Virus record (IMG/VR): IMGVR_UViG_3300048068_000305
Location: 1 to 24,971 of that record
Reading direction: 5' to 3' (one strand)
Origin: a virus
DNA length: 24,971 nucleotides
How positions within the stretch are numbered: position 1 is the first letter of the stretch; the number at the start of each line of letters is the position of its first letter. The notes beneath the pieces are model-generated. The model searched no databases, was not told the DNA's origin, and worked only from the letters and a program-made list of their open reading frames with translations. Below are positions 6,646-24,971 of this stretch, piece by piece. The translations under genes were made by a program, and so were the position numbers.

Positions 6646-6657
6646 AGCTTAACTAAT

Positions 6658-6703: not shown

Positions 6704-6728
6704 ATCAATTATTTAATTATATTATATC

Positions 6729-7556: not shown

Positions 7557-7564
7557 GTCACTAA

Positions 7565-7607
7565 TTATAGTAGCTAGGCCGCTATAATGGTGGCCTAATT
7601 ACTATAA
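7565..7607 (+). terminator. Hairpin between virion genes, possible weak terminator or processing site
   Basis: Bases 7565-7582 pair with 7590-7607. The inner stem TAGGCC/GGCCTA is perfect and is extended by GC and G-T pairs. A C-A mismatch (7574/7598) and a wobble precede nine more outer pairs. The loop is the 7 bases 7583-7589. No T-tract follows on the + strand (an A-rich stretch follows instead), so it is not a textbook terminator. It fills most of the 70-base gap before the next gene and may be an RNA processing or stability element. Confidence 0.5.
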
Positions 7608-7626
7608 ATAATAAAAAAATATACAA

Positions 7627-8358
7627 ATGGCAATAAGCGTGGATAGTGTTTACCAGCGGGTGCTTGGCATACTTAATAAAGAACAAAGAGGCTATGTAAC
7701 AGCTCAGGAATTTAACTTATTTGCTAACCAAGCGCAAGAAGATTTATTCGAACAATACTTTTACGATATAAACCAATTTGGTAGAATACCAGGTAATAGC
7801 ACAGAGTATTCGGACATGTTAAATCTACTTAACGAAAAGATTAACATATTTGAAACTTCAGCGCAACCAACTCGTACAGGAAACTTTTTTGACGAGCCAA
7901 CTGATCTATATAGATTGGGAACAGTAGTATATAAAAATACAACAACAAATTCCTTTGGTGCATCATCTACAGAAAGCATTGAAGCAGAGCGTATTAACGC
8001 TAACGAGTTTTTATACATAAACTCATCCCCATTAACAAAACCTAAAAACGTCAGACCTGTATTTGTAGCAAACACAAATGGAATCAGAGTTTATGGAAAC
8101 AGCGAGGTAACAGACGTTACTGAAGTTGAGTTTCAATACATAAAGAAGCCAGCTAAGGTTCAATGGGCTTACCAAATAGTATTTGACGAACCTTTATACA
8201 ACGCTGCGAATTCAGTTAACTTTGAGCTACATCCGTCGGAAGAAACAGAACTTGTAATTAAAATACTAGAATTATCCGGCATATTAATAAAAGACCTTAA
8301 CTTGTATCAGGTTATGAATCAAGAAGAGCAAGAAACCATTCAACAAGAAAAAGCATAA
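7627..8358 (+). CDS. Head-tail connector / ring protein
   Basis: This 243-residue protein begins with the pattern SVYQRVLGILNKEQRGYVT, followed by QEFNLFANQAQEDLFEQYF. I recall this N-terminus from structural proteins that lie between the capsid and tail hub genes in many marine and crAss-like podoviruses. Its likely role is as an adaptor or ring below the portal, comparable in position to T7 tail tubular protein A. The N-terminal 60 residues look helical, the middle is beta-rich and the C-terminus is a helix rich in Glu and Gln. The next gene starts 3 bases after the stop, which suggests linked translation. The assignment to a connector is from position and recalled family; which ring it forms cannot be told. 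Confidence 0.7.
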   Translation: MAISVDSVYQRVLGILNKEQRGYVTAQEFNLFANQAQEDLFEQYFYDINQFGRIPGNSTEYSDMLNLLNEKINIFETSAQPTRTGNFFDEPTDLYRLGTVVYKNTTTNSFGASSTESIEAERINANEFLYINSSPLTKPKNVRPVFVANTNGIRVYGNSEVTDVTEVEFQYIKKPAKVQWAYQIVFDEPLYNAANSVNFELHPSEETELVIKILELSGILIKDLNLYQVMNQEEQETIQQEKA

Positions 8359-8361
8359 CAT

Positions 8362-9282
8362 ATGGGTTTAATAAATCAAACAGACGAACAATACTACTTA
8401 GGCCCGGATGGAGTTTGGAATAGCTGGGATGAAGACTATGGCAATTACCAATTTACTAGTATTAAAGATATTATAAACAACTTTATTATATCATATGTAG
8501 GTGAGGAAAAAATTATACCTAAAGCTAAAAGAACCGATGTAGCATTTCACGCTCAACGAGGCATTCAGGAGTTCAGCTTTGATATACTGCCTTCGGTTAA
8601 ATCTGCTGAAATTGAAATAGGGCCTAATTTAAACTTCGTATTGCCTAAGGACTACGTAAACTATGTAAAATTAGTTTGGGTTGATTCTAACGGCATAGAA
8701 CGCGTTATATATCCAGCTCAGCACACTAGCAACCCATTCCCTATTCTACAAGACAATAATTACGAATATCTTTTTGATGAGCAAGATCAAGAAATAATAT
8801 CTGCGCAATCTTCAGAAACAAAGAAAAGGTTTGAGTCAACTAGCCGCAATGAAGTTAATAATAACATAGACAACTTAGATAATAAGCTAGGGGGTGGTTA
8901 TTATTTTAATCACTTTGGAAGACGCTACGGGCTTTCCCCTCAGCAAGCGCAATCTAATGGTGTTTTTTATATAGATCAACTTCAAGGAATAATATTCTTC
9001 GATTCTTCATTCGTAGGAAAAATAGTTACATTAAAATATATCTCGGACGGCTTAGGTACTGACGAAGAAATGGTTGTACATAAATTTGCAGAAGAAGCTT
9101 TATATAAGTATATAGCCTATGCTATTTTATCTACAAGAGCAAATACACCTGAGTATTTAGTAGCTCGTTTCAAAAGAGAAACTTCCGCCGCTAAAAGAAA
9201 TGCAAAAATTAGATTATCAAATATTAAAATTGAGGAGATTACACAGGTTATGCGTAATAAATCCAAAATCATAAAACACTAA
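8362..9282 (+). CDS. Head-tail connector / ring protein
   Basis: The 306-residue product is the second of two small proteins between the capsid region and the tail hub. It has a helical N-terminal region (about 30-75, TDVAFHAQRGIQEFSFDIL), a beta-rich centre (NFVLPKDYVNYVKLVWVD), a Gly/Tyr/Phe patch (about 175-192, GGGYYFNHFGRRYGL), and a basic helical C-terminus (SAAKRNAKIRLSNIKIEEI). The helix-beta-helix plan, with ISDGLG and EEMVVHKFAEEALYKYI near the end, resembles the ring or stopper proteins of crAss-like and marine podoviruses as I recall them. It would seal or join the portal to the tail. The genes on both sides lie 3 bases away, so all three are probably on one message. Confidence 0.7.
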   Translation: MGLINQTDEQYYLGPDGVWNSWDEDYGNYQFTSIKDIINNFIISYVGEEKIIPKAKRTDVAFHAQRGIQEFSFDILPSVKSAEIEIGPNLNFVLPKDYVNYVKLVWVDSNGIERVIYPAQHTSNPFPILQDNNYEYLFDEQDQEIISAQSSETKKRFESTSRNEVNNNIDNLDNKLGGGYYFNHFGRRYGLSPQQAQSNGVFYIDQLQGIIFFDSSFVGKIVTLKYISDGLGTDEEMVVHKFAEEALYKYIAYAILSTRANTPEYLVARFKRETSAAKRNAKIRLSNIKIEEITQVMRNKSKIIKH

Positions 9283-9285
9283 TAT

Positions 9286-12200
9286 ATGGCAGAGTTTGTG
9301 CATATTTTCCAAGCAGGGAGAATGAACAAAGACCTTGACGAACGTTTAGTTCCGAATGGAGAATATAGAGACGCTTTAAATTTAGACTTAGCGAACTCCG
9401 ACGCAAGTGATGTTGGAGCTATGCAAAATATTGCTGGCACAATACAATTGCGTTCAAAGGCAGGCACTGGAGCAACTTGGACCGGCGGTTATATAGACGC
9501 TATGACAAACCCTGTTTGTATTGGATCTTATAGAGATGATATAAACGAAAGAATATATTGGTTTATAGCAAGTGATGGTATTAGTGCAATTGCGGAATAC
9601 GATCAAACAAAAAATGAAGTTAGTCCTGTATTAGTAGATACCGCGGGTATTTTAAATTTTTCATCTGATTATTTAATTACAGGTATAAATATACTTGACA
9701 AGTTTCTATTCTGGACAGACGATCAAACTGAGCCAAAGAAGATTAACATTGGGAAGTTTAAAACAGGTTCTACTGATTTTATTACTCAAACTAAAATTCC
9801 TAAATGGGAACCTAACCAAGATAGCTATAACACAAATTTATCTGGGCGACCTGATTTTGTAGAAGCAGATGTTACTACAATTAAGCTTTCGCCTTTAACC
9901 GCTCCTGCAATAAACGCTTCGGTTAGCGAGTATGGTAATAATATTCCAGGAACAGGATTAACCCCTGTTACAACTACCTTTAACTACGAGGGCTTAGAAA
10001 ATTTTACATTTATACCGGATCTAACAACCGCACCTAGTAGGTTTGTATCATACCCTACTTATGGAGAATATTTAGAAAACAGGGAGAGTGGAGCTTACAT
10101 AAACAGTAGTTTTAATAATGCAGCAAATAACCCTAATTATGACGCAACTTACGGCTGGACCGGAGAGGTTACTTTTCAAATAAGCACTACAGTTACTGTT
10201 TGGGAGGTTGGTAAATTAATTACAATAAACGGAGAGTTTAATAATATATTCGGAGAAAATGTAAAATATTCTATACAGATGTCAATAGTATCTGTTTCTG
10301 GGTTGTTAATTACAGGTAGAATACAAGCTATATCTTCTAACATAGGTAAAACTATAAGCGGCGACGGGACAAGTACTCCTATTGTTTGGGAAGCTGTTCT
10401 TGAAGAAAAAGATCCGCTATTTGAATATAATTTTCCAAGGTTTGCCTATAGGTGGAAATATATAGATAATGAATATTCAGTGTATTCACCGTTTTCAGCA
10501 GTTGCTTTTGCTGGCGGGGAGTTCGAGTATTTAGCTGCCGACGGGTACAACCTAGGTATGGTAAATAACATAAGAAAATTATTAATAGATAATCTTACTT
10601 GGGGCAGCGACGAAGTATCTGAGCTTGACATCCTATATAAAGAAGCTCGCAGTACCGCTGTATACGTGGTAGATACTTTAAAAAAACAAGATTACACTTC
10701 TTTACCTACAAGTTTTGAAATTAAAAATGAATTAATAGGAGCCGTTGTAGAGGCAAATCAGATACTTAGGCCGTGGGATAATGTACCCCGTAGGGCTAAA
10801 TCTCAAGAAATAATTGGCAATAGGATAGTTTATGGTAATTACTTGCAAAATTACGATACATTTGGAGTGATTAATTTATCGACGGGTCAAACATCTACAG
10901 CCGTTGACTTGTCCTTGTCTTTGTTTAGCGAAACTCATCCTGGAAACGCAACAAACCCAAACCCAAACCCATATACTAGACTTCCGCGCCCGTCTTTAAA
11001 ATCTATAAGAACATATCAAATAGGGGTTGTATATAAAGACGCTTATGGCAGGGAAACACCGGTATTTTCAAGCCAAAATGCTAGCTTAAAGGTAGAAATA
11101 AACAAAGCTGTTTCTATATCAAAATTACAAGTTACCCCTAATAATATACCCCCTGCTTGGGCTACGCATTATAAGTTTTTTGTAAAAGAAACAGCTAATG
11201 AATATTACAATCTTGCTTTAGATAAATTTTACCCCGCTGAAGACGGCAATGTTTGGCTTTCTTTTCCTTCATCAGAAAGAAACAAAATTGATGAAGAAAC
11301 TTATTTAATATTAAAAAAACAACACGATAATAATGTACCCGTTGAAACTTTAAATAGATATAAAATATTAGCTATTCAATCGGAAGCTCCTTTGTTTGTT
11401 TCACAATTTGATGAATTTGTTGCATCCGCTGATGTTGTTGCAACAAACGAGCTGGAGCCTGGCCGTATTACTATTAACTTTACGGGTCCTTCTAATGATA
11501 ATAATCCAGCTTTTTTTAGCGGATTTAATGGTGGAAATAAAATAAAAATATCAGTTGGAGGTAATGATTCTGAGTTTTATAACGTAGTTGACGTTAGCAA
11601 TTCTGGAAGCAGCGGTGAGGAATATACTGTGCAATTAACTGAGCCATTAGGCATTGAAGTCCCAAATGTAGCTATTAATGACACTTTTATTATAAAAATA
11701 TATACAGAAGAAAAGAAAGACTTACCTGAGTTTGACGGGCGATTTTTTGCAAAAATAAACAGAGATTTTGCTTTTGACACAAATATTATTAGCTCTTTTA
11801 AAGCTTTAGCTCCCAGGTATGCCATTAAAGATGAAATTGATTTTTTGGGGACAGAAGTTTATGGGGGATTATCTCCTTTTGGTAAAGGTTATTATTATGC
11901 AGATAACGCTTGGAACGGAGGAAGTAACTGTAATGATGGAAGTGATCCTCATAATTGGGGTTTAACAGGGTGGACCGGCCCAAACTGGGGGCCATTTGGT
12001 AATTTGATGGGCTATGAGGAAGATTGGAATGGAGGGTATGCCCCGCCTACACTAGGAAGGCGGACGTTTGGTTTTGTATATGCCGGTGTTGGTAGCTGGA
12101 GTAATGTAGACTTTATGTCTGGTAATACCGGAGGGCACAGTCAAGTTAGAACCCCTACCGGGTTAATTTCTCCTGGAGCTAAGATAAGATTCAAATCTAA

Positions 12201-15200
12201 GAACGGAACATTTTCAAAAGTTTATCAAATACTAGAAGCAACTTCAAGATTGACATATAGAGGGCAGATGGATCAGGACTTTTTGGGGGGTTGTTTTGAT
12301 GATAACAATACAGCAAATTCCAAATTAGCTATTATACTTTATCTTAACGAACCAATTAATGATGAATGGATGCCTGAATGGAACGATTGGGCTACATTAA
12401 ATTCTGTATTGCCATCTATCCAGGTAGTTCAAAATGTTAGTACTGACGGTAACAAGCTATTAACATCTAGCAATCCAGCTATATTTGAAACAGAACCAAA
12501 AGAAAGTGTTAATTTAGACCTTTACTATGAGGCTAGCGACGCTATAGATATATCTGACTATAATAATTCTAACCAAATACTTAACTGGTTCAATTGTTAT
12601 TCTTACGGAACCGGGGTTGAATCTAATAGGATCAGGGACGACTATAACGCTGTTTTTATAGATAAGGGACCTAAGGTGTCTACTGTATTAGATGAACCAT
12701 ACGCAGCTGAGCGAAGAGGTAGCGGTTTTATATTTTCTCAAATATACAACTCTACATCTGGAATAAATAGATTAAACCAATTTATACAGGCTGAGCCAAT
12801 TACAAAAGACCTTAACCCTATATACGGAACAATACAGAAGCTACACGCTAGAGATACCGATTTAATATCTTTATGTGAAGACAAGTGCTTGCGCGTATTA
12901 GCTAATAAGGATGCTTTATTTAACGCTGATGGCAATTCTAATGTAACATCTAATCAAGCGGTGCTAGGGCAAGCTGTGCCTTACGCAGGCGAATTTGGTA
13001 TATCTAAAAATCCAGAGTCTTTTGCGTCTTACGGCTTTAGAGTTTATTTTACAGATAAAAACAGAGGAGCAGTAATAAGATTATCTAGAGATGGTATTAC
13101 CAATATTGCTGAAAAAGGTATGTCAAGTTTCTTTGCTGATAACTTAAGAACATCAACTACTGCTATAGGTAGTTATGATGATGATAAAGATATATACAAT
13201 CTTACATTGGATAACTTATCTAACTACTGGCAAAAAAGATTAAGCCTTGATGCTAAATACCAATTAGATCCAGATTGCGAAGACGCTCCCGATAGCTTAG
13301 TGCCTAGTGCAACAATATCATTTAAAGAAAGTGTTGACGGCTGGACAAGTAGAAAAAGCTTTATTCAAGAATCAGGCATAACTTTAAATAATTTATATTA
13401 CACTTTTAAAAGTGGTCTTGTATGGTTGCATGGCGCAAATGCTATTTACAATAATTTTTACGACGTACAATACGACAGCTCATTTAATGTTTTAATAAAT
13501 GAAATGCCACAAGTTGTAAAAGGCTTTAGTACTTTAAATTATACGGGCACAGCATCTAGAGTTTTTGAATACCAAGGGCCAAACGAAAAATGGTATTCTA
13601 TAGCAGAAGTTAATGCTAATCAAATAATACCTGAATTTTCACAGATTAAAAAACATGGCTGGTATACTAGTTTTGTTAGAACAGATCTTGAGGCTGGCGA
13701 AGTTAAAGAGTTTCAAAAGAAAGAAGGTAAGTATTTTAATTACATAAAAGGTACTTTAATTGGGTGTGAACCTGACGGCGGGGGTATTGGACCTTGTTTA
13801 GATTGCGGAGAAGATACACCTCAAGACTACTTATTAACAGTTACTATTGACGAAACTTGTAGCAGCTCAGGCTCTCCAATCCCTGATACTGATTTTAGAG
13901 GATGGTACCAGTGGAATGCTAAAGGAATAACATCTCCAATAATAGATGAACTTACAGCTCAAGACGCTAAATGTATTATAGACGACTTTTACGCTCAAGT
14001 TAGTGGAAACTATTCCGAGGTAGTTGTATACAGCAACCACTTTAAGTATGTGTTTGAAGATGGTATATCTGTAGGTACTCAAATGTATGATTCCACCACT
14101 TTAGAGCCCGTAACTACTCCAGGATGTTATTTGTACATAAAGAACCCTCCTGGAGCGCTTCCAAATAGCCCTGCTTTAGATCCTGGTAATCCAACTGAAG
14201 CACCTGTTACTTACTTTATAGTTATATGGGGAGCTGATGGAATTATAGACAGTGTAACACCATATATCTCTCTTACAGTATGCCAGGCACTCCCAGATAC
14301 CTATTGGTCTATGTGGACTACCTTTCAAGTTATAACACAAGAAACGGGATCGCATATAGAGAACTTAAATAATTATTCTAACGCTTTAGATAGCAAGTGT
14401 GCGCTTGAGGATTTATATCAGTTAACGGTTGATGAAACTTCAACAGGAGGTAGCCAAAGCGGAATAGGATTTTATTTTTATAGCAATATTGGCTTTGGAG
14501 AAGGCACGCAGCTTTACGCTCAAAATGGTATTCCACTGAGTCTTAATAGTCCTGGAGCTCACTTGTTAGTAAGACCTCCAGCGGAGAATAATTTAAACAA
14601 TGACGTTTTTATACGAGATAACGGCGTATCTGCTCCGGACTCTTACGAAATAGTAATTGTAGGTAGCAACGGAGTGGTAGAATCCATAACACAATATAAC
14701 ACTATTACAGGATCTTGTTCCGAGGACCCTTACGAGCCGATTGAAGGTCAAGACTTTAGGTTCATAGCTACAAAAACCGCGTCTCCATATTTTGGATTGT
14801 TTGATAACACTTTAACAGAAGTAAGCTCTCCCTATACATTTGCGCCTGTGCCTAACCATATTAGCTCAGTTGTAGCTAAAGTAAGCGACAACTACAATTA
14901 TATGCTAACTGCAGGACTGTATGACTCTCAACCAGTTTATTTATCAACTGATAATGGAGAGAGCTGGAGTAACTCAACTTTTTCCGCCAACAAAAATAAC
15001 GTTCATATTTCTAGATCTGGTCAGGTTATGATTATTGAAAGCGGGGGCTTTAATAATGCCTTAATTGAAGTTTCAAATAATTTTGGAGATAGTTTTACAA
15101 CTTTTAATTTAGATAACATAATTACGCTAGGAACATCTGTTTCTTTTCTAAACAGGGTAGCATTGTCCTCAGGAGGTAAATTTATAACGATAAGTGTATT

Positions 15201-15732
15201 TGCTAATGGTGGGACTGCAAACGACAATAAATATCGTATATTAAAAAGCAGTGATTATGGAGCTAGCTTTAGTGATATAACTGACAACGTAGGCTTTCCT
15301 TTTACAGGTGCACGGTTTACAGTTGATATTCAAGATGGTTTAATATCAGGAAATGGTAAATATGAAATATACTTTAATGCTGCAGGTTTATCTAGATATT
15401 CTGACGACTATGGCGAAACATTTATTGATAAAAACTACGCACAAATTGATTGGAATCCAAGCGGTCAAATAAGTGAAAACGGGAAATATTTTATGTTAGA
15501 AGGAGGTCAAAATAGTAGGTATTCAACTGATTTTGGCGCTTCAGAAACACTGTTAGCAGCCCCTAACTCTTCATATGGAGATATAGGCGTAAACAGCTCA
15601 GGAGAATTTTCTTTTGCTACAGGAAGCAATAGTAATAGTATGTCGTATAGCAATGATTTCTTTGATACATTCACAACTATTGGCCCAGTAGCGGACGTTA
15701 CTAAACCTTTTATATTAGTAGACGTAGGTTAA
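9286..15732 (+). CDS. Tail hub / stabilisation (muzzle-like) protein with modular receptor-binding C-terminus
   Basis: This 2148-residue protein starts with a segment (residues 10-40, GRMNKDLDERLVPNGEYRDA) shared, as I recall, by podovirus tail stabilisation or nozzle proteins such as P22 gp10-like and crAss muzzle proteins. Residues 1-1490 form one large, mostly beta body with no signal peptide, ending in the conserved-looking SFVRTDLEAGEVKEFQ region. A Gly/Cys hinge (about 1493-1510) follows. Residues about 1513-1666 and 1667-1811 are two diverged copies of one domain. Residues about 1850-2148 carry six Asp-box motifs (S-x-D-x-G-x-x-W/F), expected to fold as a beta-propeller. The N-terminal part probably closes the tail channel and the C-terminal modules probably contact the host surface. 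Whether the propeller has an enzyme site is not clear; I see no obvious sialidase Arg triad. It is much longer than typical family members because of the added modules. Confidence 0.8.
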   Translation: MAEFVHIFQAGRMNKDLDERLVPNGEYRDALNLDLANSDASDVGAMQNIAGTIQLRSKAGTGATWTGGYIDAMTNPVCIGSYRDDINERIYWFIASDGISAIAEYDQTKNEVSPVLVDTAGILNFSSDYLITGINILDKFLFWTDDQTEPKKINIGKFKTGSTDFITQTKIPKWEPNQDSYNTNLSGRPDFVEADVTTIKLSPLTAPAINASVSEYGNNIPGTGLTPVTTTFNYEGLENFTFIPDLTTAPSRFVSYPTYGEYLENRESGAYINSSFNNAANNPNYDATYGWTGEVTFQISTTVTVWEVGKLITINGEFNNIFGENVKYSIQMSIVSVSGLLITGRIQAISSNIGKTISGDGTSTPIVWEAVLEEKDPLFEYNFPRFAYRWKYIDNEYSVYSPFSAVAFAGGEFEYLAADGYNLGMVNNIRKLLIDNLTWGSDEVSELDILYKEARSTAVYVVDTLKKQDYTSLPTSFEIKNELIGAVVEANQILRPWDNVPRRAKSQEIIGNRIVYGNYLQNYDTFGVINLSTGQTSTAVDLSLSLFSETHPGNATNPNPNPYTRLPRPSLKSIRTYQIGVVYKDAYGRETPVFSSQNASLKVEINKAVSISKLQVTPNNIPPAWATHYKFFVKETANEYYNLALDKFYPAEDGNVWLSFPSSERNKIDEETYLILKKQHDNNVPVETLNRYKILAIQSEAPLFVSQFDEFVASADVVATNELEPGRITINFTGPSNDNNPAFFSGFNGGNKIKISVGGNDSEFYNVVDVSNSGSSGEEYTVQLTEPLGIEVPNVAINDTFIIKIYTEEKKDLPEFDGRFFAKINRDFAFDTNIISSFKALAPRYAIKDEIDFLGTEVYGGLSPFGKGYYYADNAWNGGSNCNDGSDPHNWGLTGWTGPNWGPFGNLMGYEEDWNGGYAPPTLGRRTFGFVYAGVGSWSNVDFMSGNTGGHSQVRTPTGLISPGAKIRFKSKNGTFSKVYQILEATSRLTYRGQMDQDFLGGCFDDNNTANSKLAIILYLNEPINDEWMPEWNDWATLNSVLPSIQVVQNVSTDGNKLLTSSNPAIFETEPKESVNLDLYYEASDAIDISDYNNSNQILNWFNCYSYGTGVESNRIRDDYNAVFIDKGPKVSTVLDEPYAAERRGSGFIFSQIYNSTSGINRLNQFIQAEPITKDLNPIYGTIQKLHARDTDLISLCEDKCLRVLANKDALFNADGNSNVTSNQAVLGQAVPYAGEFGISKNPESFASYGFRVYFTDKNRGAVIRLSRDGITNIAEKGMSSFFADNLRTSTTAIGSYDDDKDIYNLTLDNLSNYWQKRLSLDAKYQLDPDCEDAPDSLVPSATISFKESVDGWTSRKSFIQESGITLNNLYYTFKSGLVWLHGANAIYNNFYDVQYDSSFNVLINEMPQVVKGFSTLNYTGTASRVFEYQGPNEKWYSIAEVNANQIIPEFSQIKKHGWYTSFVRTDLEAGEVKEFQKKEGKYFNYIKGTLIGCEPDGGGIGPCLDCGEDTPQDYLLTVTIDETCSSSGSPIPDTDFRGWYQWNAKGITSPIIDELTAQDAKCIIDDFYAQVSGNYSEVVVYSNHFKYVFEDGISVGTQMYDSTTLEPVTTPGCYLYIKNPPGALPNSPALDPGNPTEAPVTYFIVIWGADGIIDSVTPYISLTVCQALPDTYWSMWTTFQVITQETGSHIENLNNYSNALDSKCALEDLYQLTVDETSTGGSQSGIGFYFYSNIGFGEGTQLYAQNGIPLSLNSPGAHLLVRPPAENNLNNDVFIRDNGVSAPDSYEIVIVGSNGVVESITQYNTITGSCSEDPYEPIEGQDFRFIATKTASPYFGLFDNTLTEVSSPYTFAPVPNHISSVVAKVSDNYNYMLTAGLYDSQPVYLSTDNGESWSNSTFSANKNNVHISRSGQVMIIESGGFNNALIEVSNNFGDSFTTFNLDNIITLGTSVSFLNRVALSSGGKFITISVFANGGTANDNKYRILKSSDYGASFSDITDNVGFPFTGARFTVDIQDGLISGNGKYEIYFNAAGLSRYSDDYGETFIDKNYAQIDWNPSGQISENGKYFMLEGGQNSRYSTDFGASETLLAAPNSSYGDIGVNSSGEFSFATGSNSNSMSYSNDFFDTFTTIGPVADVTKPFILVDVG
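13822..14718 (+). repeat. Tandem duplication of a ~145-residue domain within the tail protein
   Basis: Copy 1 spans bases about 13822-14283 and copy 2 spans 14284-14718. Shared landmarks, in order, are an aromatic N-terminal start (DTDFRGWYQW / DTYWSMWTTF), a Lys-Cys centre (AQDAKCIIDDFY / LDSKCALEDLY), a GTQ-M/L-Y turn followed by a Pro/Gly segment, and a C-terminal strand pair (FIVIWGADGIIDSVTPY / EIVIVGSNGVVESITQY) ending in Cys. DNA identity is low, so the duplication is old. The function is unknown; binding modules are likely. Confidence 0.75.
14944..15672 (+). repeat. Six Asp-box (BNR-like) repeats forming a predicted beta-propeller
   Basis: Asp-box-like motifs occur at residues about 1887-1894 (STDNGESW), 1930-1937 (SNNFGDSF), 1988-1995 (SSDYGASF), 2039-2046 (SDDYGETF), 2080-2087 (STDFGASE) and 2122-2129 (SNDFFDTF). 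Starts are spaced 43, 58, 51, 41 and 42 residues. Most are preceded by a S-G-x-G-K/Q/E strand such as ISGNGKYEIYF. Such motifs occur on the blade edges of sialidase-type and VPS10-type propellers. Confidence 0.82.
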
Positions 15733-15764
15733 AATAAATAAAAATAATTTAATAATAAGTAAAT

Positions 15765-17852
15765 ATGCCAAGTTTTAACAATTATACATTTACAAACATC
15801 CAGTATACTATACCGGAAGGAAGCAATGTTTCTATATTATACCCTACAGCACAAATAACAATTGTGCCAAATAGTGGGTATACAGCAAACGCTGCAGATT
15901 TTTCACTAGACCCTAGCTTTTCTGACAATGCAGTACAGTCCGTAGTTTTTACCCAAGATGGTTTAAATGTACTTTGTACTGTAACTTTTGACACAGGATT
16001 TGTAATGCCTTCAGGTAACTACACAATACCTTTGTGCGTTGTAGGTGAAGGAACTGTAGTTAACATAAATGTTGCAGGGTTAGTATATTCTTCAGTTGGT
16101 GAAAACATTAGCGGAGACGGCCCTGAAACCGGAACTGCTTTTAGCAACTCAGGAAGCCTAGGCCAAACAGAATTGTTACTTACAAGAACGTATAATGCAG
16201 ACGCTGGCTACTATTGGGAAACGTCTAATTACCCTACGATTAATATAACTCAAGGTAACCAAGCTAATTATAACATAGTACAAACGCCTACTTATGCCGG
16301 AGACGATTTAACAGGTATTTCTTATGCGGTTAATTATACATACCCTACTCAAGACAATTTACAAGAGCGCATTGCGATAAATGTACCAGGAGTTAGTTTA
16401 ATATATGTTGCTCCTCAGTATATTACAAGTTACTCTGGATTACCTAGCACGGTTAGCGGCTATGGACAGGAAGTTAATGGTTGGCGAATATATGGAAGTG
16501 AAGGAGCTAGCGTTACGGCTACTTTAGTAAGTCCTAATCACTCTGCTGTCATTTGCAGCGACACTATTGGTAGCTCCGGCTTTATAAGCGCTGACATATT
16601 GTTTCCAGATATAAATCTTTCTTGTAATGGTTTTTGTAACGAGGTGTACACTATTACACTAACAGGAGATTTGGACCCTGCTTTTGCTCAACCAAACCCT
16701 ATAACAGTCTATCAATCTACTGTTCAACCGAGAATAGAGTTTACAGCGAGCTCTTCCTACGGAATAACTGGATATTCTCAAATAGAAACCAAAGGATCTG
16801 CCTATACCGTTCTATCTTCACCTCAAACAATACCAGTAGAGTGGACTTTAACTACACCTTTAGGGACTATAAGCCCCCCTTCTTCATCTATAGACTATGA
16901 TACTATAGTTTTAGAAAACAACCAAGTAAGTTTCCCTGAAGCTACATCAGATCAACTTAATGTAAATAATATTAATGTTAATTCAACAGCTGGCATATTG
17001 CCTGGCGATGTTTTTAATAACGAATTTATTTCAGGATCTTACCAAACACCTACGGGCAATAATGAATCGTTAAACGCTGGCTTGTATTCTCCTTTTGAAT
17101 ATACTGTTACCGCTGTAAACTCTAGTACAAATATAAGTGTTACGCCTAATATATCTATAAAGGAAGGTTTTATATTAACAATTGTTAGAAATGGAGGCAA
17201 TGTAGTAGATATTTCAGATATAAGCTTAACTCAAGTTGATTCTGCAACTGTAAAATTAAGCGCAATATTTAATGTAAATTCTTTTGGGTATGAAAATAAA
17301 ACTTTTATTTTAAATCTAGACGAAGCATTAAGTTTTACGCCAAACTTAGCCTGCGCGGCATCTGCTGTTAGTGGAGGTGAAGGCATAACAGATTATTCTT
17401 TAGACTTGGATCCAGCAGGAGGTGTTGTTGCGTTCCTAGTTAATGGGCAAGGGTTGCCTGATAAGTTTGAAATATTCCACGGCTTACCTTTTGCTAATGA
17501 CAAAAAAGCAACATCCAGCATGAGCGCTTCCGGAAACTTGGGGCCTTTTGAAAATGTTTTTGGAACTGAGCCTATCAACTTAATACCAACTTCATCACAG
17601 CTGAATCAAGATCAATTTATAGGTTCTGATAAAGGAACAATTCCAAATAGAACTTCAGAATTTTTTAATGATACTGGATTTACTATACCAAGTATGACTG
17701 TAGGCGGAACAACTTATCAACAGGTTGTTTGGTGGCAATATACAGCAGCTGATTATACTAATAATTCAAATGCAACAATAAGAATAACAGGGCCTTCTGG
17801 AACAGGATGGGATGCTTTAAGATTATGCTGCCCTGACGGAAACTGTACTTAA
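15765..17852 (+). CDS. Beta-rich tail fibre or adhesin-like protein
   Basis: This 695-residue protein is almost entirely predicted beta strands, with Ser, Thr, Asn, Gly, Tyr and Val dominant. At least two N-terminal units (about residues 10-115 and 140-210) share a strand-GY-turn layout (VPNSGYTANAADF / YNADAGYYWETSNY) and suggest repeated Ig-like or similar beta-sandwich modules. Residues about 540-695 form a distinct C-terminal module (GLPDKFEIFHGLPF, then a GPFENVFG segment, VVWWQYTAADY, and a terminal RLCCPDGNC). I recall this C-terminal pattern from other marine phage and bacterial surface proteins, without a named function. Next to the tail hub, it is probably a receptor-binding fibre. 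No catalytic motif is seen. The 9-base spacing to the following gene suggests joint translation. Confidence 0.7.
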   Translation: MPSFNNYTFTNIQYTIPEGSNVSILYPTAQITIVPNSGYTANAADFSLDPSFSDNAVQSVVFTQDGLNVLCTVTFDTGFVMPSGNYTIPLCVVGEGTVVNINVAGLVYSSVGENISGDGPETGTAFSNSGSLGQTELLLTRTYNADAGYYWETSNYPTINITQGNQANYNIVQTPTYAGDDLTGISYAVNYTYPTQDNLQERIAINVPGVSLIYVAPQYITSYSGLPSTVSGYGQEVNGWRIYGSEGASVTATLVSPNHSAVICSDTIGSSGFISADILFPDINLSCNGFCNEVYTITLTGDLDPAFAQPNPITVYQSTVQPRIEFTASSSYGITGYSQIETKGSAYTVLSSPQTIPVEWTLTTPLGTISPPSSSIDYDTIVLENNQVSFPEATSDQLNVNNINVNSTAGILPGDVFNNEFISGSYQTPTGNNESLNAGLYSPFEYTVTAVNSSTNISVTPNISIKEGFILTIVRNGGNVVDISDISLTQVDSATVKLSAIFNVNSFGYENKTFILNLDEALSFTPNLACAASAVSGGEGITDYSLDLDPAGGVVAFLVNGQGLPDKFEIFHGLPFANDKKATSSMSASGNLGPFENVFGTEPINLIPTSSQLNQDQFIGSDKGTIPNRTSEFFNDTGFTIPSMTVGGTTYQQVVWWQYTAADYTNNSNATIRITGPSGTGWDALRLCCPDGNCT

Positions 17853-17861
17853 AATAAAAAT

Positions 17862-18200
17862 ATGGCAAATATAACTTTAACATTTTCAAACCCCTTACCC
17901 GAAGGAATTCAAGTAGGAGACATCGCTTGGTATTTAGATGTTGATGCCGAACCTGCACCTACAGAAGTAGAAATGGGGCCAATACTTTCAATAGGAAGTA
18001 ACCCTGTCTCTATAGTTGTAGACGCAGCAGTAGGCGTTGGTTCTCCCTCGCAAGATGATTTTATTTTTTATGCTGAAAATCCTATTGGTTTTTTAGGGCA
18101 GCTTAAAGGGTACTATGCTGAAGCTCAGTTTAGGAATAGTTCAACAAGCTACGCCGAGTTATTTTCCATAGGGTCAGAAATATTTGAGAGTAGTAAATAA
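17862..18200 (+). CDS. Small conserved tail/structural accessory protein
   Basis: This 112-residue protein begins 9 bases after the fibre-like gene. It starts with MANITLTFSNPL, has a beta-rich core (VQVGDIAWYLD, GPILSIGS), and ends in GYYAEAQFRNSSTSYAEL followed by GSEIFESSK. I remember very similar short proteins with this C-terminal ending next to tail fibre genes of marine Bacteroidota phages, but no proven function is known to me. No signal peptide or membrane segment is visible. It could be a fibre cap, baseplate-like adaptor or decoration protein. The start is supported by the first Met of the frame and an A-rich leader. Confidence is high that it is a gene, low on role. Confidence 0.72.
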   Translation: MANITLTFSNPLPEGIQVGDIAWYLDVDAEPAPTEVEMGPILSIGSNPVSIVVDAAVGVGSPSQDDFIFYAENPIGFLGQLKGYYAEAQFRNSSTSYAELFSIGSEIFESSK

Positions 18201-18231
18201 CGTGTAATAATAATATATAAAACTTAATATA

Positions 18232-18873
18232 ATGATAGGTCAAGTAGTTGGCGGATTAACCAGCATAGCTAGCGGTATAATCGGCAGTAAAAAAAGAAGG
18301 CGAGAGGCTAGTAGAGCGGCAGCAGAGTTAAAAAAGCGTAAAGCTGAATATGAAAGACAGGACACTTCTAACGTATACACAAACATGCAAAACACCATGG
18401 AGGACTTAACCGTTAACCAGCAAGCTGCACAATTTCAAGCGGAACAAGAGCAACAAGGACTTTCTAATATAATGGGGCAAATGCAAGGCGCAGCTGGAGG
18501 ATCTGGCATTGCAGCATTAGCTCAATCATTAGCGGGGCAACAATCTCAAAACCTAAGAAGAGCATCGGCGGACATTGGCAGACAAGAACAAGCTAATCAA
18601 ATGGCTGAAAGAACCCAAGCGAGCAACCTTCAGCTTTATGAAAAGAAAGGTGAATTAATATCAAGAGACGCAGAAAAAGATAAAATATCAACCCTAATGG
18701 GCATGGCTCAACAAAGATCTGCAGCGGCAAATCAGGCAAAACAAGATGCAACAAATGCTATTATTGGTGGAATCGGCTCAACAGTTGGCGGTGTTGCTTC
18801 TGCTCTAGGTGGTACGCCAAATATGGGTGGATCCGGAGGAGGGTTTATGCAGAATATGATGGGCAACGGGTAA
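18232..18873 (+). CDS. Internal virion / ejection protein (small, T7 gp14-like in plan)
   Basis: The 213-residue product starts with a hydrophobic Gly/Ile stretch (VVGGLTSIASGIIGS, residues 4-18) followed by a strongly basic patch (KKRRREASR). Residues 20-170 are a long Gln/Ala/Glu-rich helical region (about residue 60-130, with AAQFQAEQEQQ and GGSGIAALAQSLAG). The C-terminus has a glycine-rich hydrophobic segment (AIIGGIGSTVGGVASALGG) and a disordered GGSGG tail. This plan, a small amphipathic membrane-active-looking protein opening a cluster of three increasing-size virion genes, resembles the T7 ejection proteins gp14-gp15-gp16. It would be packaged in the head and injected to help form a channel in the host envelope. 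The similarity is architectural, not an alignment. Confidence 0.6.
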   Translation: MIGQVVGGLTSIASGIIGSKKRRREASRAAAELKKRKAEYERQDTSNVYTNMQNTMEDLTVNQQAAQFQAEQEQQGLSNIMGQMQGAAGGSGIAALAQSLAGQQSQNLRRASADIGRQEQANQMAERTQASNLQLYEKKGELISRDAEKDKISTLMGMAQQRSAAANQAKQDATNAIIGGIGSTVGGVASALGGTPNMGGSGGGFMQNMMGNG

Positions 18874-18890
18874 TTAATAAAATATAAATT

Positions 18891-20297
18891 ATGAATCAAC
18901 AGTTAGTAAAAGGAGCCGCCTTAATAGGGCAAAGCAATAGGTCCACTTGGAATCAAGCTTTTCAAAAAAACCTAAATGCATCTTTAGCAGAAGGAGCTAA
19001 AAGACAAATGATCCGTAAAGCTGAGAAAGCTAGAGCTAATGCTAAAACGGCTGGGTATATAGAAAGTTTAAATTCTAAAGTAGATACTACTAGCTTATCC
19101 AGTTCCCAGCAGCAAGCTGTTTCAAATTACCTTACCGATCAGAAAATGCTATACGCAGACGCTGCTAGGAGAATATCTAAACTAGACCCAACTCACCCAG
19201 AGTACATGGCCGTTCGTGACGAGATGAACGCCGTGCAAATGAATTTTACAAATTTAGCAGGTTCGTTAAATCAATACAAAGAAGACAAAAGCAATTATTT
19301 AGCAGATTTTGATAACAGTTTGCTTTCTGCTGGCAACAAAACTAGCACTTATGTGGAGGCTTCTAAAATTTATACTGACGAAGGATTTGTTGGGATTGGA
19401 GAGGGTGGCGTGTTAAATTTCTGGAATGACGCTAAAGGAGAATACAAAAAATACCAGGATATAGACAAGCCTTTCTTAAAAGACACAAAATCAGCAAATA
19501 GCATACTCCAACTCAATGAGCAATTATACAACTCAGGGAAGGAATTAAATGGCACCAGAAGAAATATGGTGCGTCAAAAATTAAATAGCATGATTAGCTC
19601 AGGAGGTAGAGATACTTTATTGTCACTAGCCTCTGATGATTTTATAATAGAAGGTGGATTGGGCTTACAAGATCCTAACTTATTCGAAAAAGAAAACGAA
19701 GCATTCCTTAAGGAGGCTGTGCTGGACGGCTATATGAACGTGTTAGAGGACACCGCGTCACAAGGAGCTATTGACAATAGACCTAAAGTCTCAGGAGGCG
19801 GTAGAGGGGCTGGCGGCAGAAAAACTTTACAAGAAGAAATACCTGTTGTTAATGATGCTTTTGCTTTTTCTCAAATGAGCACTAATGTTGCTCCTGGAGA
19901 CAGAGAAGCTAAAACTAGATTACTTGTTCAAGAGATAAATGCAATAGACCCCACTAAGGCAGGTAACTATTATTCTAGGGGGGATTTTTACAACATGTGG
20001 CTTGACGGCGTAGGAGAGAACGACAGTGATGAGGCTCGAAGAGTTTTTATTAACACCTACGGGGATTCCCAAATATTCCTGTTTAATGAAAAAGACCCTG
20101 AACGATCTATGCCTATTAAGATGAATACTGATAACCCTCAAGACTTGTATGAGTTTTATTTAAAGAATTCTAATCTTAACACTAGAGCGCAGAATTACCA
20201 CATCGGACAATACGAAGGCTATATAGCAAATTCTGAAAAACCAAAAGAAAACAATACTACTTCTTCTACAGGAGGAGGTTCACTAGACAATCTTTAA
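18891..20297 (+). CDS. Internal virion / core protein (predicted)
   Basis: This 468-residue, mainly helical and charged protein follows the small ejection-type gene. The N-terminus (MNQQLVKGAALIGQSNRSTW) and residues 30-140 are predicted helical with an Arg/Lys-rich patch (KRQMIRKAEKARANAKTA). A flexible Gly-rich linker (SGGGRGAGGRK, about residues 301-311) separates two halves. The C-terminus is Ser/Thr/Gly-rich and disordered. No enzyme motif is seen and I do not recognise a precise family. The location between a gp14-like protein and a giant polyvalent protein suggests a packaged core or cargo protein ejected with the DNA. The next gene's ATG lies 4 bases after the stop, suggesting coupled translation. 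Confidence 0.62.
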   Translation: MNQQLVKGAALIGQSNRSTWNQAFQKNLNASLAEGAKRQMIRKAEKARANAKTAGYIESLNSKVDTTSLSSSQQQAVSNYLTDQKMLYADAARRISKLDPTHPEYMAVRDEMNAVQMNFTNLAGSLNQYKEDKSNYLADFDNSLLSAGNKTSTYVEASKIYTDEGFVGIGEGGVLNFWNDAKGEYKKYQDIDKPFLKDTKSANSILQLNEQLYNSGKELNGTRRNMVRQKLNSMISSGGRDTLLSLASDDFIIEGGLGLQDPNLFEKENEAFLKEAVLDGYMNVLEDTASQGAIDNRPKVSGGGRGAGGRKTLQEEIPVVNDAFAFSQMSTNVAPGDREAKTRLLVQEINAIDPTKAGNYYSRGDFYNMWLDGVGENDSDEARRVFINTYGDSQIFLFNEKDPERSMPIKMNTDNPQDLYEFYLKNSNLNTRAQNYHIGQYEGYIANSEKPKENNTTSSTGGGSLDNL

Positions 20298-20301
20298 TTA
20301 A

Positions 20302-23300
20302 ATGGAAAAATTATTTAACTCCTTAAGCGAAAGCGGAAAATACACTAAATCTTTTGAAGATTTTCAAACACAGTTTGGGTCTAAAGAAGGTCAAGAAAAA
20401 CTATACGGAGCATTAAAAAACTCTGGTGATTATACAAAATCTTTCGGTGATTTTAGTAATCAATTTTTTGCTGCAGAACCAGTAAAGACAAACGACTCTG
20501 CAAGTGCGGATCCAGCTGTGGAGTCAAGCCAAGAAGATACGGGGTCCAAATCGGAAGAGCCTTTATCGGCGTGGCAATCTATTAAGAATACATTCAAAAA
20601 AGCAGGTGAACGTATCTATGACGTTGTTGAGTTTTGGGGCACTGACGAAGGTGCTAATTCCGGGTTAGATATAGCTACAAACTCATTTTATTCATTATTA
20701 TCAAGTCAAGAAGCCGTTGATGAATATGCAAAAAACAACCCCGGCTGGATGTCAGAAGGCTTGGGATCTGAAGCGACTATAGAGGCTATAAAAAAATATA
20801 AACTAGAACAAGATGAAAGTAATTTTGCTACTAAAGGTATTGTAGCTAGCGCTAAAGAAGGCGATGTAGGCGGACTTATAGCTGGTAGCGTTGAAGCTTT
20901 AGTAAATGCTTTTTCTAGCGGTGTATATTTTTTAGGTACAGGGTTGGGAGCTGGAGTCTTTTCTGAAGTTGCTGCTGAAAATTATATTACATATAACGAA
21001 CAAAAAGCTGAGAACTTAGGCGTATCTTTAGATGAACTTATTAGATCAGGCGAAGCAGACAATTTAGCTCCGGTTGGATTAGGTGCTGTTAGTGTTGGAT
21101 TAGAAAGATTTGGATTTGGTAAAGTTTTAAAAGGCATTGCTGGTAAAAATATAATTAAAAACGCTAGTGCTAAACTTATATACAATAGAAAAGCTAGAAA
21201 TGTTGCTAATATATTGGCAGCTGGGGGAGTAGAATCTGCTACGGAGATATTACAGCATGCTACCGATAAAATAAATGAAGAATTTGGTAGAACAGCAGGA
21301 ACAGAAGAAGACGCTAAGTTTGTGCAAGCCACTTTCGACGCTATATTTAGCGAAGAAGCGCTTGAAGCTGGATTACAGGGGTTAATAGGCGGTGGTGGAT
21401 TATCTGCAACAGGAACCGGTTATAGAGCTATGAACACGATAAGAACCACTGTAGATGGGGATTTAATTGATAAAAACTTAGAGGACTTAAGTAAGCTGAG
21501 AGTAAAATTTAATAAAGCCACTGATAAAACAGAAAAAGCTGGCATACAAAAACTAATAGATACTAAAGAGTCAGAAATAGCTGATTCTGTAAGGAAAGGC
21601 AATGACATATATAATAGTCTCTCAGATGGGCAGTTAAAAGAAATAGAAAATTTAACAGATCTAGCTGACGCTGCGGCATATCAAGTTACTGAGCTAAATA
21701 AAAAGTTTAGAGCAGGGGAAATCGACAAAGCTGGCTATGATTTAGCTTATCAAGGTTTTAAATCTGAATATGATAGCGTACGCCAGCAACTTATTGATAT
21801 GAACCTCGAGCAAAACATAGAGTTTGCAAAGCAAGAGGCTGAATCAAAGGGGCTTAAATTTAAAGTTTACGAAACCACGAAATCTTTGCAACAAGCAATG
21901 AATAGGTTTAAGACAAGCAAAGAGAATAAGCAGGCTTTTAAAGACAACAAAGGTAATATACACGGATTTGCCATAGGTAACCAGATATTTATTAACAAAG
22001 AGGTATCTAGTAAATTAGGCGCCGTAAACGTTGGAGCACACGAATTTTTACACCCTGTGTTTAACAAACTAGTTGGGAATGTTAAGGAGCAAAGCAAAAT
22101 GGTTCGTCAGTTTAGAAAATCAATGACCTCATCTCAAAGAAGGTTTGTTGATGCTGAAATGAAAAAAAGGGGGTATACAGGTAAAGAATATAATACAGAG
22201 TATGTTAATGTATTTTCTGATGCTTTACGTAAAAAACAAATTAATTACGATAAAACAACATTTGAAAAAATAGGAGACGCTATAGTAAGTGTTTTTAAAC
22301 CAGTAGGCTATACTAATATAGGCTTTGAGTCTGGTAAAGATGTATATAATTTTATTAAAGAATTTGACCAAAGTGCAGAACAGGGTAAATTAACAACAAA
22401 AGCAGCAGAAGCTCTTAAAGATGTTGATTTAAGTGATGCTGGACTACAAGACGAGCTACAGACCTCTAAAACATTATCAGAGGACGTTAAGGCTACATTG
22501 ACAGATAACATAACGGAAATAAAGAATCTAGCAAAAGAGAACGCTGAGATAGCTGCTAAGTTTAATAAAGAGCCTATTAAAGGAGCAAAGCAAGTAAGAT
22601 TAGAAAGAGAAGTTATTGAAGGCGTAAAACCTTTGGTTGAAAAAATTGTTACAAATCGTACAAAAGCATTGTATGACAAAATAGCAGATGATGCTAAAAG
22701 AGGCGTTACAAGAGAACAGTTCCAAGAATCAATGCGAGCTGACATTGAAACAATGATCCTTAATGAATACGATGCAACCAAACAAGATCTCGAAAAGTTT
22801 ACAGTAAGCAGAGCGTATTTAAGAGCTAACAATTTAGCTAAACGTTTAGGAATAGAATCTGTAGAAGAAGGCGGTATCAAACAAGATATAGATACTGCTA
22901 AAGGCATTACAGAAGAAAAAACCACAACCACAAAGCCCAAAGAACCTTCTGTAGAAAGAGGGCAAGCTACATTTGATGAGCTTGACATCATTGACGATGC
23001 TTTAATTGAAGATATTAAATCTGAGCTTGAAAAAGAAATAAGGACTAGGGTTCAAAAGGGTACATTAGCGGAAACTGTTTCTGTTAAAAAAGGTAGAGAA
23101 ACTTATATTGTTTCTTGGCTAGAAAATTATGTTAACAAACAGCTGTTTAAAAAGCTTCTTAAAAAAGTAGGTGCAATTAAAGGAACATATCCTAATACTA
23201 TAATACCTACTGCATATATTGACTTTTTACAAGATCCTAAAACTTTTGATATTATAACAAAAGCTTTACCTATTAAAAGTATAAAGAAAAGTTACGGTAA

Positions 23301-24971
23301 GCTATTTGGAATAGAGCGCATAGGTAGAGAAGTTACCGCGGAGGGTAACCCTGTATTTAGAATAAAGAAAATCGATAAGACTAAGTTTTTTAAATACTTT
23401 GTTGAAGGGAAAAAATCAACTGTATTAGAAAGACAAAAGCAATTGTTTAGAGAAATACTTGAACCGTTAGCTAAACAAGCTGTAGCTGACTTCACTACTG
23501 CAGAAAACTTAGAAAAATTAAAATCAATCCAAAGTTTAGCTCCCGCAACTTCTGTTGATGTTGTTAATAAAATAAGCTTAGATGCCGCTCTCAATAATTT
23601 AGAGTCCCAAATAGACCGATATAAAGGCGAAGCTGCAGGATTTGATATTATACAGTTTAGCTTAACTAAACAGGAAAGATCACAAATTGCGGAAAAACTA
23701 GACCTAAAAAGTGATAGCAATATAACAATGGCCCAAATTGAAGCTCAAGTTATTGCTCAAACACTTAGACCTCTTGTTAAAGAAAGAAAAGCAGAAATAA
23801 AAGATATTGAGTACAAATTAGGCCCTGAGTTATTTGAAAAACTACAAAACACCGTAATAGGCCCTTATTTGGATTCACTACAGGCTTTGCAAGACAAAAA
23901 AGCTTATGCGAGAGGTACTTTTGCAGAGCAGCTCGCATGGGATGCTTTTAAAGGCGTTAAAGGTGTTAAAATGGTTTCTAAGCGTCCTGATGGAAAAGCT
24001 GGAAGTTCCGCTCCTGATATTGTAATAAATTACAAAGGTCAAAATATTATATTTGAGATTAAAAGTAGAAGATCGGATAGAATAACAAGTGTTAATATTT
24101 ATAACTATACCGATTCTAAAAACTATAAAACCACAAGAAACACAGGTACGGAAAGCGAACAAATTATATTTGATCAAATAAAGAAAAGCAAAAACTTAAA
24201 TAGTTTTGTTTCTAAGGTTAAAAAAATGATGGATAAATTTTATCCAGGAGAGAATTACTTAGATAAAAATGGTTACATAGAATTAACACCTGAGCAAATT
24301 GTAAAATTAAATTTAAAAAATAGCCTATATAAAGAAACTGTTACATATATAGAAGGACTAAATGAAAAATTAGTAGAAACTATATATAACGAAAAGGGAG
24401 CCAACTATATAGGCTTTACCGACATAGGGAGTTTTTATGTTGGTAATAATAAAAATAATTTATCAGTTCCTAAATTTCAAGCGGACTTATACTCAAGAGC
24501 CTGGCTTTACATGGGTCAAATCAAAAAAAATGGAAAACATACATTTCCGTTAAGAATGTTTGCGCAAATATCAACTGAATCAAGTAAAAAGCTAGGTGAA
24601 GCTAAAACAGATTCTATTATTAATAGCAATTCTATAAAAACAATCCTTCAATTTAGTTTAACAGCTGCTCAACCAATTGAATTTCAGGATAGTAGATTAA
24701 AAGGAAGACAAATAAGCACTTTTGACATAAACGGAGTCGATTACCAGGCTGAGCTGTTTGATTTTAAAAATTTAGCCTCAACTTTTGACAATGCAGAAGA
24801 GCTATTTAAAGCGATGCAAAAAGTTTCAGGAAGTAAAAAAGTAACATCTGAAGAATATAAGTATTTTGTATTTGATAGAAATGATGACACTGGAATTGTA
24901 AGTCAACAAGGAGAAGAAGTGGAATGGAACGGTAAAAGATGGATTTATCCTGAATCTGACACAAAACAATC
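20302..24971 (+). CDS. Giant polyvalent virion protein with zincin-like and PD-(D/E)XK-like regions (3' end outside window)
   Basis: The frame is open from ATG 20302 to the window edge (at least 1556 residues, no stop) and all + strand lines in this frame read as coherent protein. Residues 3-55 are two 30-residue-period repeats. Residues about 190-380 hold hydrophobic Gly/Ala-rich helices (GGLIAGSVEALVNAFSSGVY; GLQGLIGGGGLSATG). Residues about 390-515 look like coiled coil. At 580-584 is HEFLH, an HExxH zinc-peptidase motif, with Glu633 (in NTEYVNVFSDAL) a candidate third ligand. A Thr/Lys/Pro linker (about 870-890) follows. Residues 1209-1256 give Glu, Pro-Asp and EIK in PD-(D/E)XK spacing. 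It is probably a packaged, injected protein replacing T7 gp16-type proteins; the enzyme roles are inferred. No RNA-polymerase DxDxD motif was noticed in this part. Its C-terminus is unknown. Confidence 0.8.
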   Translation, partial: MEKLFNSLSESGKYTKSFEDFQTQFGSKEGQEKLYGALKNSGDYTKSFGDFSNQFFAAEPVKTNDSASADPAVESSQEDTGSKSEEPLSAWQSIKNTFKKAGERIYDVVEFWGTDEGANSGLDIATNSFYSLLSSQEAVDEYAKNNPGWMSEGLGSEATIEAIKKYKLEQDESNFATKGIVASAKEGDVGGLIAGSVEALVNAFSSGVYFLGTGLGAGVFSEVAAENYITYNEQKAENLGVSLDELIRSGEADNLAPVGLGAVSVGLERFGFGKVLKGIAGKNIIKNASAKLIYNRKARNVANILAAGGVESATEILQHATDKINEEFGRTAGTEEDAKFVQATFDAIFSEEALEAGLQGLIGGGGLSATGTGYRAMNTIRTTVDGDLIDKNLEDLSKLRVKFNKATDKTEKAGIQKLIDTKESEIADSVRKGNDIYNSLSDGQLKEIENLTDLADAAAYQVTELNKKFRAGEIDKAGYDLAYQGFKSEYDSVRQQLIDMNLEQNIEFAKQEAESKGLKFKVYETTKSLQQAMNRFKTSKENKQAFKDNKGNIHGFAIGNQIFINKEVSSKLGAVNVGAHEFLHPVFNKLVGNVKEQSKMVRQFRKSMTSSQRRFVDAEMKKRGYTGKEYNTEYVNVFSDALRKKQINYDKTTFEKIGDAIVSVFKPVGYTNIGFESGKDVYNFIKEFDQSAEQGKLTTKAAEALKDVDLSDAGLQDELQTSKTLSEDVKATLTDNITEIKNLAKENAEIAAKFNKEPIKGAKQVRLEREVIEGVKPLVEKIVTNRTKALYDKIADDAKRGVTREQFQESMRADIETMILNEYDATKQDLEKFTVSRAYLRANNLAKRLGIESVEEGGIKQDIDTAKGITEEKTTTTKPKEPSVERGQATFDELDIIDDALIEDIKSELEKEIRTRVQKGTLAETVSVKKGRETYIVSWLENYVNKQLFKKLLKKVGAIKGTYPNTIIPTAYIDFLQDPKTFDIITKALPIKSIKKSYGKLFGIERIGREVTAEGNPVFRIKKIDKTKFFKYFVEGKKSTVLERQKQLFREILEPLAKQAVADFTTAENLEKLKSIQSLAPATSVDVVNKISLDAALNNLESQIDRYKGEAAGFDIIQFSLTKQERSQIAEKLDLKSDSNITMAQIEAQVIAQTLRPLVKERKAEIKDIEYKLGPELFEKLQNTVIGPYLDSLQALQDKKAYARGTFAEQLAWDAFKGVKGVKMVSKRPDGKAGSSAPDIVINYKGQNIIFEIKSRRSDRITSVNIYNYTDSKNYKTTRNTGTESEQIIFDQIKKSKNLNSFVSKVKKMMDKFYPGENYLDKNGYIELTPEQIVKLNLKNSLYKETVTYIEGLNEKLVETIYNEKGANYIGFTDIGSFYVGNNKNNLSVPKFQADLYSRAWLYMGQIKKNGKHTFPLRMFAQISTESSKKLGEAKTDSIINSNSIKTILQFSLTAAQPIEFQDSRLKGRQISTFDINGVDYQAELFDFKNLASTFDNAEELFKAMQKVSGSKKVTSEEYKYFVFDRNDDTGIVSQQGEEVEWNGKRWIYPESDTKQ
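20308..20466 (+). repeat. Two tandem 30-residue-period N-terminal repeats in the giant protein
   Basis: Residues 3-25 and 33-55 align without gaps at an offset of 30, with 14 of 23 positions identical, including a shared YTKSF, D-F and Q-F core (GKYTKSFEDFQTQF / GDYTKSFGDFSNQF). Codons differ between the copies, so the duplication is old or under protein-level constraint. Confidence 0.8.

Follow-up and report, generated by a model that had tools for sequence, protein, structure and literature searches.

The window analyzed here is a 24,971-base virus fragment from IMG/VR, in which a cluster of virion genes is followed by a giant gene that is cut by the window end (Table 1). The cluster holds a portal, a scaffold-like gene, the major capsid protein, neck genes, a 2148-aa tail protein and small virion genes, and a terminase-like product (Pfam/PHROGs) is also encoded upstream of the giant gene. 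Among the window products, PHROGs identified the portal (phrog_6547, E 3e-148), the major capsid protein (phrog_13704, E 6e-99) and two neck-type proteins (phrog_14543 and phrog_13977), while the tail protein gave a weak match to the C-terminal part of the crAss muzzle (Pfam/PHROGs). In the tail protein (9286-15732) this match spans residues 1387-1488, and Vps10/sortilin-like repeats lie at residues 1869-2002.

The portal of the window matched 87 phage records, comprising Flavobacterium, Cellulophaga, Tenacibaculum and Maribacter phages as well as one uncultured record, and the source of the fragment is most likely a podovirus-like marine phage of Bacteroidota. The order of the virion genes is common to the Flavobacterium and Cellulophaga phages, and in several phages of the portal-matching set the cluster likewise terminates in a giant gene annotated “structural protein” (for the Cellulophaga phages this label is used as annotated). 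The genes of ejected or internal virion proteins usually lie at the end of such a virion cluster, and the giant gene thus occupies a site typical of them; gene order, together with the literature, suggests that its product would be part of the virion and enter the host. In one other locus (L041), the sequence beyond the giant gene has a plus-strand ORF (15468-15893) that resembles an amidase endolysin by eye and is followed by a ribonucleotide-reductase-like gene on the minus strand (16040-17758, also by eye).

Table 1. Positions of the features discussed (window coordinates unless another locus is named)
Feature	Position (nt)	Strand	Residues	Basis
Virion gene cluster upstream of the giant gene	1570..20297	+		PHROGs and Pfam
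Giant protein gene, 1556 aa, cut by window end	20302..24971 (ORF 20302-24969)	+		Sequence
Two N-terminal repeats, GKYTKSFEDFxxQF / GDYTKSFGDFxxQF	20302..20481	+	1-60	Read in sequence
Zincin metallopeptidase domain (predicted)	21775..22434	+	492-711	AlphaFold2 and 97-relative alignment
HEFLH, two predicted zinc ligands and predicted general base	22039..22053	+	580-584	Invariant in 97 rows
Codons of H580, E581 and H584	22039-22041, 22042-22044, 22051-22053		580, 581, 584
E633, predicted third zinc ligand	22198..22200	+	633	Invariance and model
D640, near-invariant acid on the ligand helix (D/E in 100/103)	22219..22221	+	640
Degenerate junction motif QTSKT, end of zincin module	22459..22473	+	720-724
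Junction motif IQFSLT	23650..23667	+	1117-1122
PD-(D/E)XK nuclease module (predicted)	23749..24561	+	1150-1420	Conserved residues and model
Junction motif LQFSLT	24646..24663	+	1449-1454
C-terminal module in L029	11941-14613 (L029)		about 1480-2340

Architecture of the giant protein

In close relatives, most complete orthologues have 2166-2467 aa. No Pfam or PHROGs family matched the giant protein of the window above its cut-off. In tblastn searches of 50,697 phage records, neither the giant, nor the zincin domain of a distant relative, nor a third relative had a match; cultured relatives were reached solely via the portal gene and a structure search. When 134 giants were compared all against all, the zincin was seen to be followed by a middle that varies and then by a C-terminal module. 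The latter, about 870 residues long, shows strong conservation in 121/134 giants, and in our protein it falls beyond the end of the window. It opens with a HAD-type domain (phrog_415, “polynucleotide kinase,” matched by 8/32 members, best 3.6e-5); the module had no good Pfam match and no PDB relative by sequence, and those giants of Flavobacterium and Cellulophaga phages that were examined for it gave no match. Its relatives number at least 545 viral contigs, 122 of its positions are more than 90% conserved in 109 giants, and the part past the HAD-type domain is helical-looking with many invariant Q, S, N and R residues. Two near-identical giants, L030 and L031, differ in length (1730 aa in one, 2456 aa in the other) through a stop or frameshift in one contig, either biological or an assembly error.

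The HExxH motif and its conservation

The initial annotation had read HEFLH at residues 580-584 of the giant protein, preceded by IFINKE and NVGA, and these positions are correct, with IFINKE at residues 562-567. On the plus strand and in frame with the giant ORF, positions 22021-22230 read AVNVGAHEFLHPVF...YNTEYVNVFSDALR, the motif stretch of the protein being AVNVGAHEFLH...NTEYVNVFSDALR, and the minus strand of the same interval is closed by stops. The giant protein has only 5 His, and any HExxH arose in 0.1% of 2000 shuffles.

Relatives were collected in a first scan (25 related viral contigs), an alignment-based scan (at least 263 related contigs, 80 kept), a scan for a second subgroup (102 contigs, 80 kept) and a scan of genome contigs (two related), and all fetched loci matched the zincin domain profile. 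Among 103 members below 80% identity, E633 was present in all, and H580, E581 and H584 in essentially all aligned members. Because some of the scan patterns contained E633 or H580, the 81 nonredundant members that had not been selected on these residues were counted apart; in them, E633 was found in 81/81, E581 in 78/78 aligned, H580 in 76/78 and H584 in 76/76 aligned. Seven members inspected directly, five of them with an apparent gap at HExxH in the alignment, all carried HEFLH slightly upstream. The initial annotation had proposed conservation in relatives as a check on its claim, and across 97 diverse relatives, down to 20% identity, the only invariant residues were H580, E581, H584 and E633, along with F684.

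A set blind to the protease gave the same picture: among 80 contigs retrieved by the C-terminal module alone, 71 of the 73 five-prime-complete giants had HExxH upstream of that module. The two exceptions have degenerate zincins: that of L213 (residues 940-1160) reads LEELFH, and that of L268 (residues 1000-1180) reads HHDAFH. HEFLH could in principle have arisen by chance in a helical protein of another kind, since the window protein itself matched no Pfam or PHROG family and no PDB sequence above cut-off, but the conservation in 97 relatives already refutes this idea and the structural model and the co-occurrence with the C-terminal module exclude it as well, so that we give it a negligible probability.

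A predicted zincin fold

AlphaFold2, run on residues 492-711 with the 97 relatives, returned a model with a mean pLDDT of 88.7 and a pTM of 0.86. In order, the model has a helix, a strand, two helices, two strands, a short helix and the HExxH helix (86-99), followed by two connecting helices, a helix (136-152) that bears E633, and C-terminal helices. The predicted fold amounts to a minimal zincin: one helix, a sheet of three strands, and the two helices that bear HExxH and the Glu. As in members of the zincin clan, the model places HExxH on a helix and the predicted third ligand, a Glu as in gluzincin-type sites, downstream on a later long helix, and the core elements follow in the expected order at a pLDDT of 88.7, with the listed structural matches at Z below 6. 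Structure prediction, which the initial annotation had named as a way to check its metal site, thus has H580 and H584 sharing a helix, with a later long helix bearing E633, within a zincin-type domain. The earlier suggestion that E633, some 50 residues on, could act as the third ligand is borne out as to its position, invariance and predicted placement on the later helix. The label “gluzincin-like” fits insofar as the site combines HExxH with a Glu; in fold, however, the domain comes closest to small zincins of the M34/PPEP and PprI types and not to thermolysin.

Foldseek alone found no significant match in the PDB. With a second aligner, nearly all of the top PDB rows were zincins at modest Z scores (below 6): the N-domain of anthrax lethal factor (Z 5.5-5.6), PPEP-1, -2 and -3 (4.3-5.2), PprI (3.7), collagenase (2.8) and thermolysin (2.1). 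We nevertheless call the domain a zincin, because these matches agree among themselves and the residues are invariant. Against predicted viral structures, the matches were giant proteins of uncultured phages, the elemoC structural protein of a Flavobacterium phage and a protein labeled “large polyvalent protein associated domain-containing.” By sequence, Peptidase_M78 was matched by 12 of the 97 relatives (best 3.3e-7), while the window's own domain had no match; ATLF was matched by 4/97 (best E 0.0025), the thermolysin-type M4 profile by 1/97 (E 0.011), and M90 and SprT-like (Pfam) and the phrog_87 metallo-protease (PHROGs) by single relatives. A PDB sequence search with the zincin profile returned nothing meaningful. 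An HNOB match over residues 625-690 (E 0.006) was rejected, being below its cut-off and covering the Glu helix only.

Judging from the model and the invariant residues, the domain of the window would be a zincin metallopeptidase, and we infer that it binds zinc and is active. It has to be weighed whether the fold is instead kept for structure, as a packing or ejection element. The precedent for this is the N4 vRNAP, whose C1 region holds an HExxH and which is packaged unprocessed (PMC5512222; PMC12633501). A structural role would not require invariant catalytic residues, however, and four catalytic positions are invariant in a domain that otherwise falls to 20% identity; we therefore regard such a role as very improbable.

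The nuclease module and the junction motif

The giant protein of the window carries a second enzymatic domain behind the zincin, a PD-(D/E)XK nuclease module. Nine sequences, with identities as low as 20%, all keep its residues E1209, D1239, E1252 and K1254, which form the E...D...ExK signature of these nucleases, and the model, whose pLDDT is only 78, shows their core fold. The best match of the model was the HhaI endonuclease (Z 9.8, rmsd 3.0 over 158 aligned residues); further restriction enzymes and Holliday-junction resolvases came next. A search for further copies of the module was unsuccessful; it is present in only about nine giants, which marks it as rare, exchangeable cargo. Relatives of the window giant have an additional HAD phosphatase-type domain. 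With a zincin and an unrelated nuclease in one polypeptide, encoded among virion structural genes, the protein is polyvalent in the sense of PMC5512222.

On reading the complete relatives, an FSK string was noticed to recur between modules. Counted as [ILVMAF]xFS[KRLMI][STNAV] in the 134 giants, with expected values from shuffles, the motif occurs 117 times between the zincin and the C-terminal module (8.9-10 expected) and 77 times within the C-terminal module (11.2 expected), as opposed to 2 times in front of the zincin (6.6 expected) and 0 times inside it (3.1 expected). When all 400 dipeptides were counted in this frame, only FS stood out strongly (z 33, the next reaching at most 8.3), and in the nonredundant set it was counted 69 times against 6.4 expected. 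Conservation extends over about six positions (I/V/L, K/Q, F, S, K/L/R, S/T), with the consensus [IVL][KQ]FS[K/L][ST]. The codons of the motif match the background, with serine codons divided between AGY and TCN, indicating selection on the protein and not a copied DNA repeat. Other long ORFs on the same contigs had no excess (39 vs 36.4 expected), and the motif is absent from twelve other proteins of the window.

The motif also tends to sit at module borders: for 128 of the 142 copies, a homology break is no more than 5 residues away, compared with 58 +/- 6 at random positions and a random maximum of 73 in 500 trials. The test is biased to some degree, since local alignments are prone to stop at a motif that is shared. 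In the window, two copies bracket a nuclease of about 38 kDa, one on each side; in relatives, the HAD module often has the motif next to it, at one end or at both. Where the zincin module of the window giant ends with the degenerate QTSKT, its sisters read EFSKT or KFSKT.

Proposed self-cleavage and the alternatives

On balance, we think that the zincin of this giant polyvalent virion protein probably, though far from certainly, cuts mainly the giant protein itself at the FS linkers and so frees its modules. The initial annotation had offered host proteins, cell wall peptides and the giant protein as substrates; the giant protein has gathered most of the evidence, and nothing was found in favor of a host target. 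In the mechanism that we propose, H580, H584 and E633 would hold the zinc and E581 would activate the water, and the zincin would cut, in cis or between copies, at [IVL][KQ]FS[K/L][ST], either while virions are assembled or once the protein has been delivered into the cell. The cuts would free the modules behind the protease, namely the nuclease of the window from between its two linkers and, in relatives, the HAD phosphatase-type domain and other exchangeable modules. Several points weigh against this: a strict copy of the motif is missing from the middle region in 53 of the 134 giants; L213 keeps its motif copies even though the first His of its zincin motif is lost; the zincin protein of elemoC has one possible motif copy only; and the N4 vRNAP has an MPTase and is nonetheless packaged uncut (PMC5512222). 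The bias of the homology-break test and the modest Z scores of the PDB fold matches count on the same side.

The main alternative is that the zincin is active but acts mostly on a host protein or on a periplasmic or cell-wall peptide that it encounters in the course of delivery or later, with the FS motifs being flexible, exchangeable linkers or a docking signal instead of its cleavage sites, which we hold to be rather unlikely. The motif is restricted to the part behind the zincin and to module borders and has about six conserved residues, all of which argues against it, and no pointer to a host substrate was seen here. Such restricted placement and such a number of conserved residues are the usual appearance of protease sites. 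On the other side, the domain is conserved as an enzyme, the motifs of L213 persist without an intact active site, and a host-directed effector is listed as an alternative role of MPTases in PMC5512222. A further possibility is that another protease, either a phage maturation enzyme or one of the host, processes the FS motifs while the zincin has a separate role; the degenerate zincin of L213 beside its retained motifs would be in keeping with this. Many tailed phages do use a separate head protease. No peptidase was recognized, however, among seven (Pfam) or six (PHROGs) other products of the window, and the zincin and the C-terminal module occur together in 71/73 giants, so that processing by another enzyme appears quite improbable.

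Comparison with known systems

Part of the system is familiar. Zincins are known as a kind, zincin-like MPTase domains occur in phage “polyvalent proteins” such as P1 DdrB and the N4 vRNAP, and they were sorted into 12 clades and their self-processing of polyvalent proteins was proposed in 2017 (Iyer 2017, PMC5512222). A keyword search of the text of that paper turned up no cleavage site for such processing. The predicted domain of the window resembles these MPTases in its three-stranded sheet, its HExxH helix and the Glu on the following helix, and the giant protein resembles the polyvalent proteins in the fusion of unrelated enzymes, the position of the gene next to virion genes and the self-processing predicted for it. 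Unlike the MPTases described there, the window family has a visible candidate linker code. The code is new, being undescribed in the openly licensed literature that was searched, and so are its restriction to module borders and to the region behind the zincin and the nuclease that it brackets.

The giant of Flavobacterium phage vB_FspP_elemoC_14-1A (QMP84890.1, 3694 aa) is the last gene of the same virion cluster and has, like the window giant, a detectably homologous zincin (HEIFH), but it is much longer, no C-terminal module was detected in it, and its one possible junction motif compares with 0.34 expected. The N4 vRNAP likewise has one possible copy (0.17 expected), unlike the multi-copy window family; in the N4 vRNAP, the crAss001 RNA-polymerase proteins and the Cellulophaga giants, at most single copies were seen, and these were not counted as positive. 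A stretch of P1 that lacks the dar operon was left out of this comparison. Cellulophaga phages phi38:1 (gp101) and phi46:3 (gp120) have their giants at the same position, after the portal, capsid, neck and tail genes, but neither protein has HExxH or the junction motif, so the last gene of the cluster does not always encode this protease. PPEP-1, -2 and -3 (M34-type) and PprI/IrrE (M78-type) are among the best solved matches to the model of the window zincin, at low Z and about 11-16% identity; they are stand-alone enzymes and not modules of a phage polyprotein.

We can go further, with somewhat less than even confidence, and suggest that a large family of uncultured marine phages delivers a self-cutting polyprotein in which the zincin reads a simple linker code set between exchangeable enzyme modules and cargo is added by inserting a code-flanked module, an arrangement of modules and code that may be likened to the polyproteins of RNA viruses. 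The family behind the code comprises at least 263 related metagenomic contigs. The candidate site, for which the statistics are strong, makes the processing prediction of 2017 (PMC5512222) directly testable. If the proposal is true, the FS code would offer a means to chart what many giant phage proteins that lack annotation carry as cargo, and would explain how modules such as the nuclease are swapped without disturbing the rest of the giant.

HExxH stretches were also noticed in two other large proteins. L187 (741-12320, MW202828.1) encodes, as the last product of this virion gene cluster, a protein of 3859 aa, annotated “reticulocyte binding/rhoptry protein,” with two HEFGH stretches and perhaps two zincin domains. 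In L274 (6120-13145), gp47 of crAss001, an RNA-polymerase-associated virion cargo protein, carries an HExxH at residue 2157.
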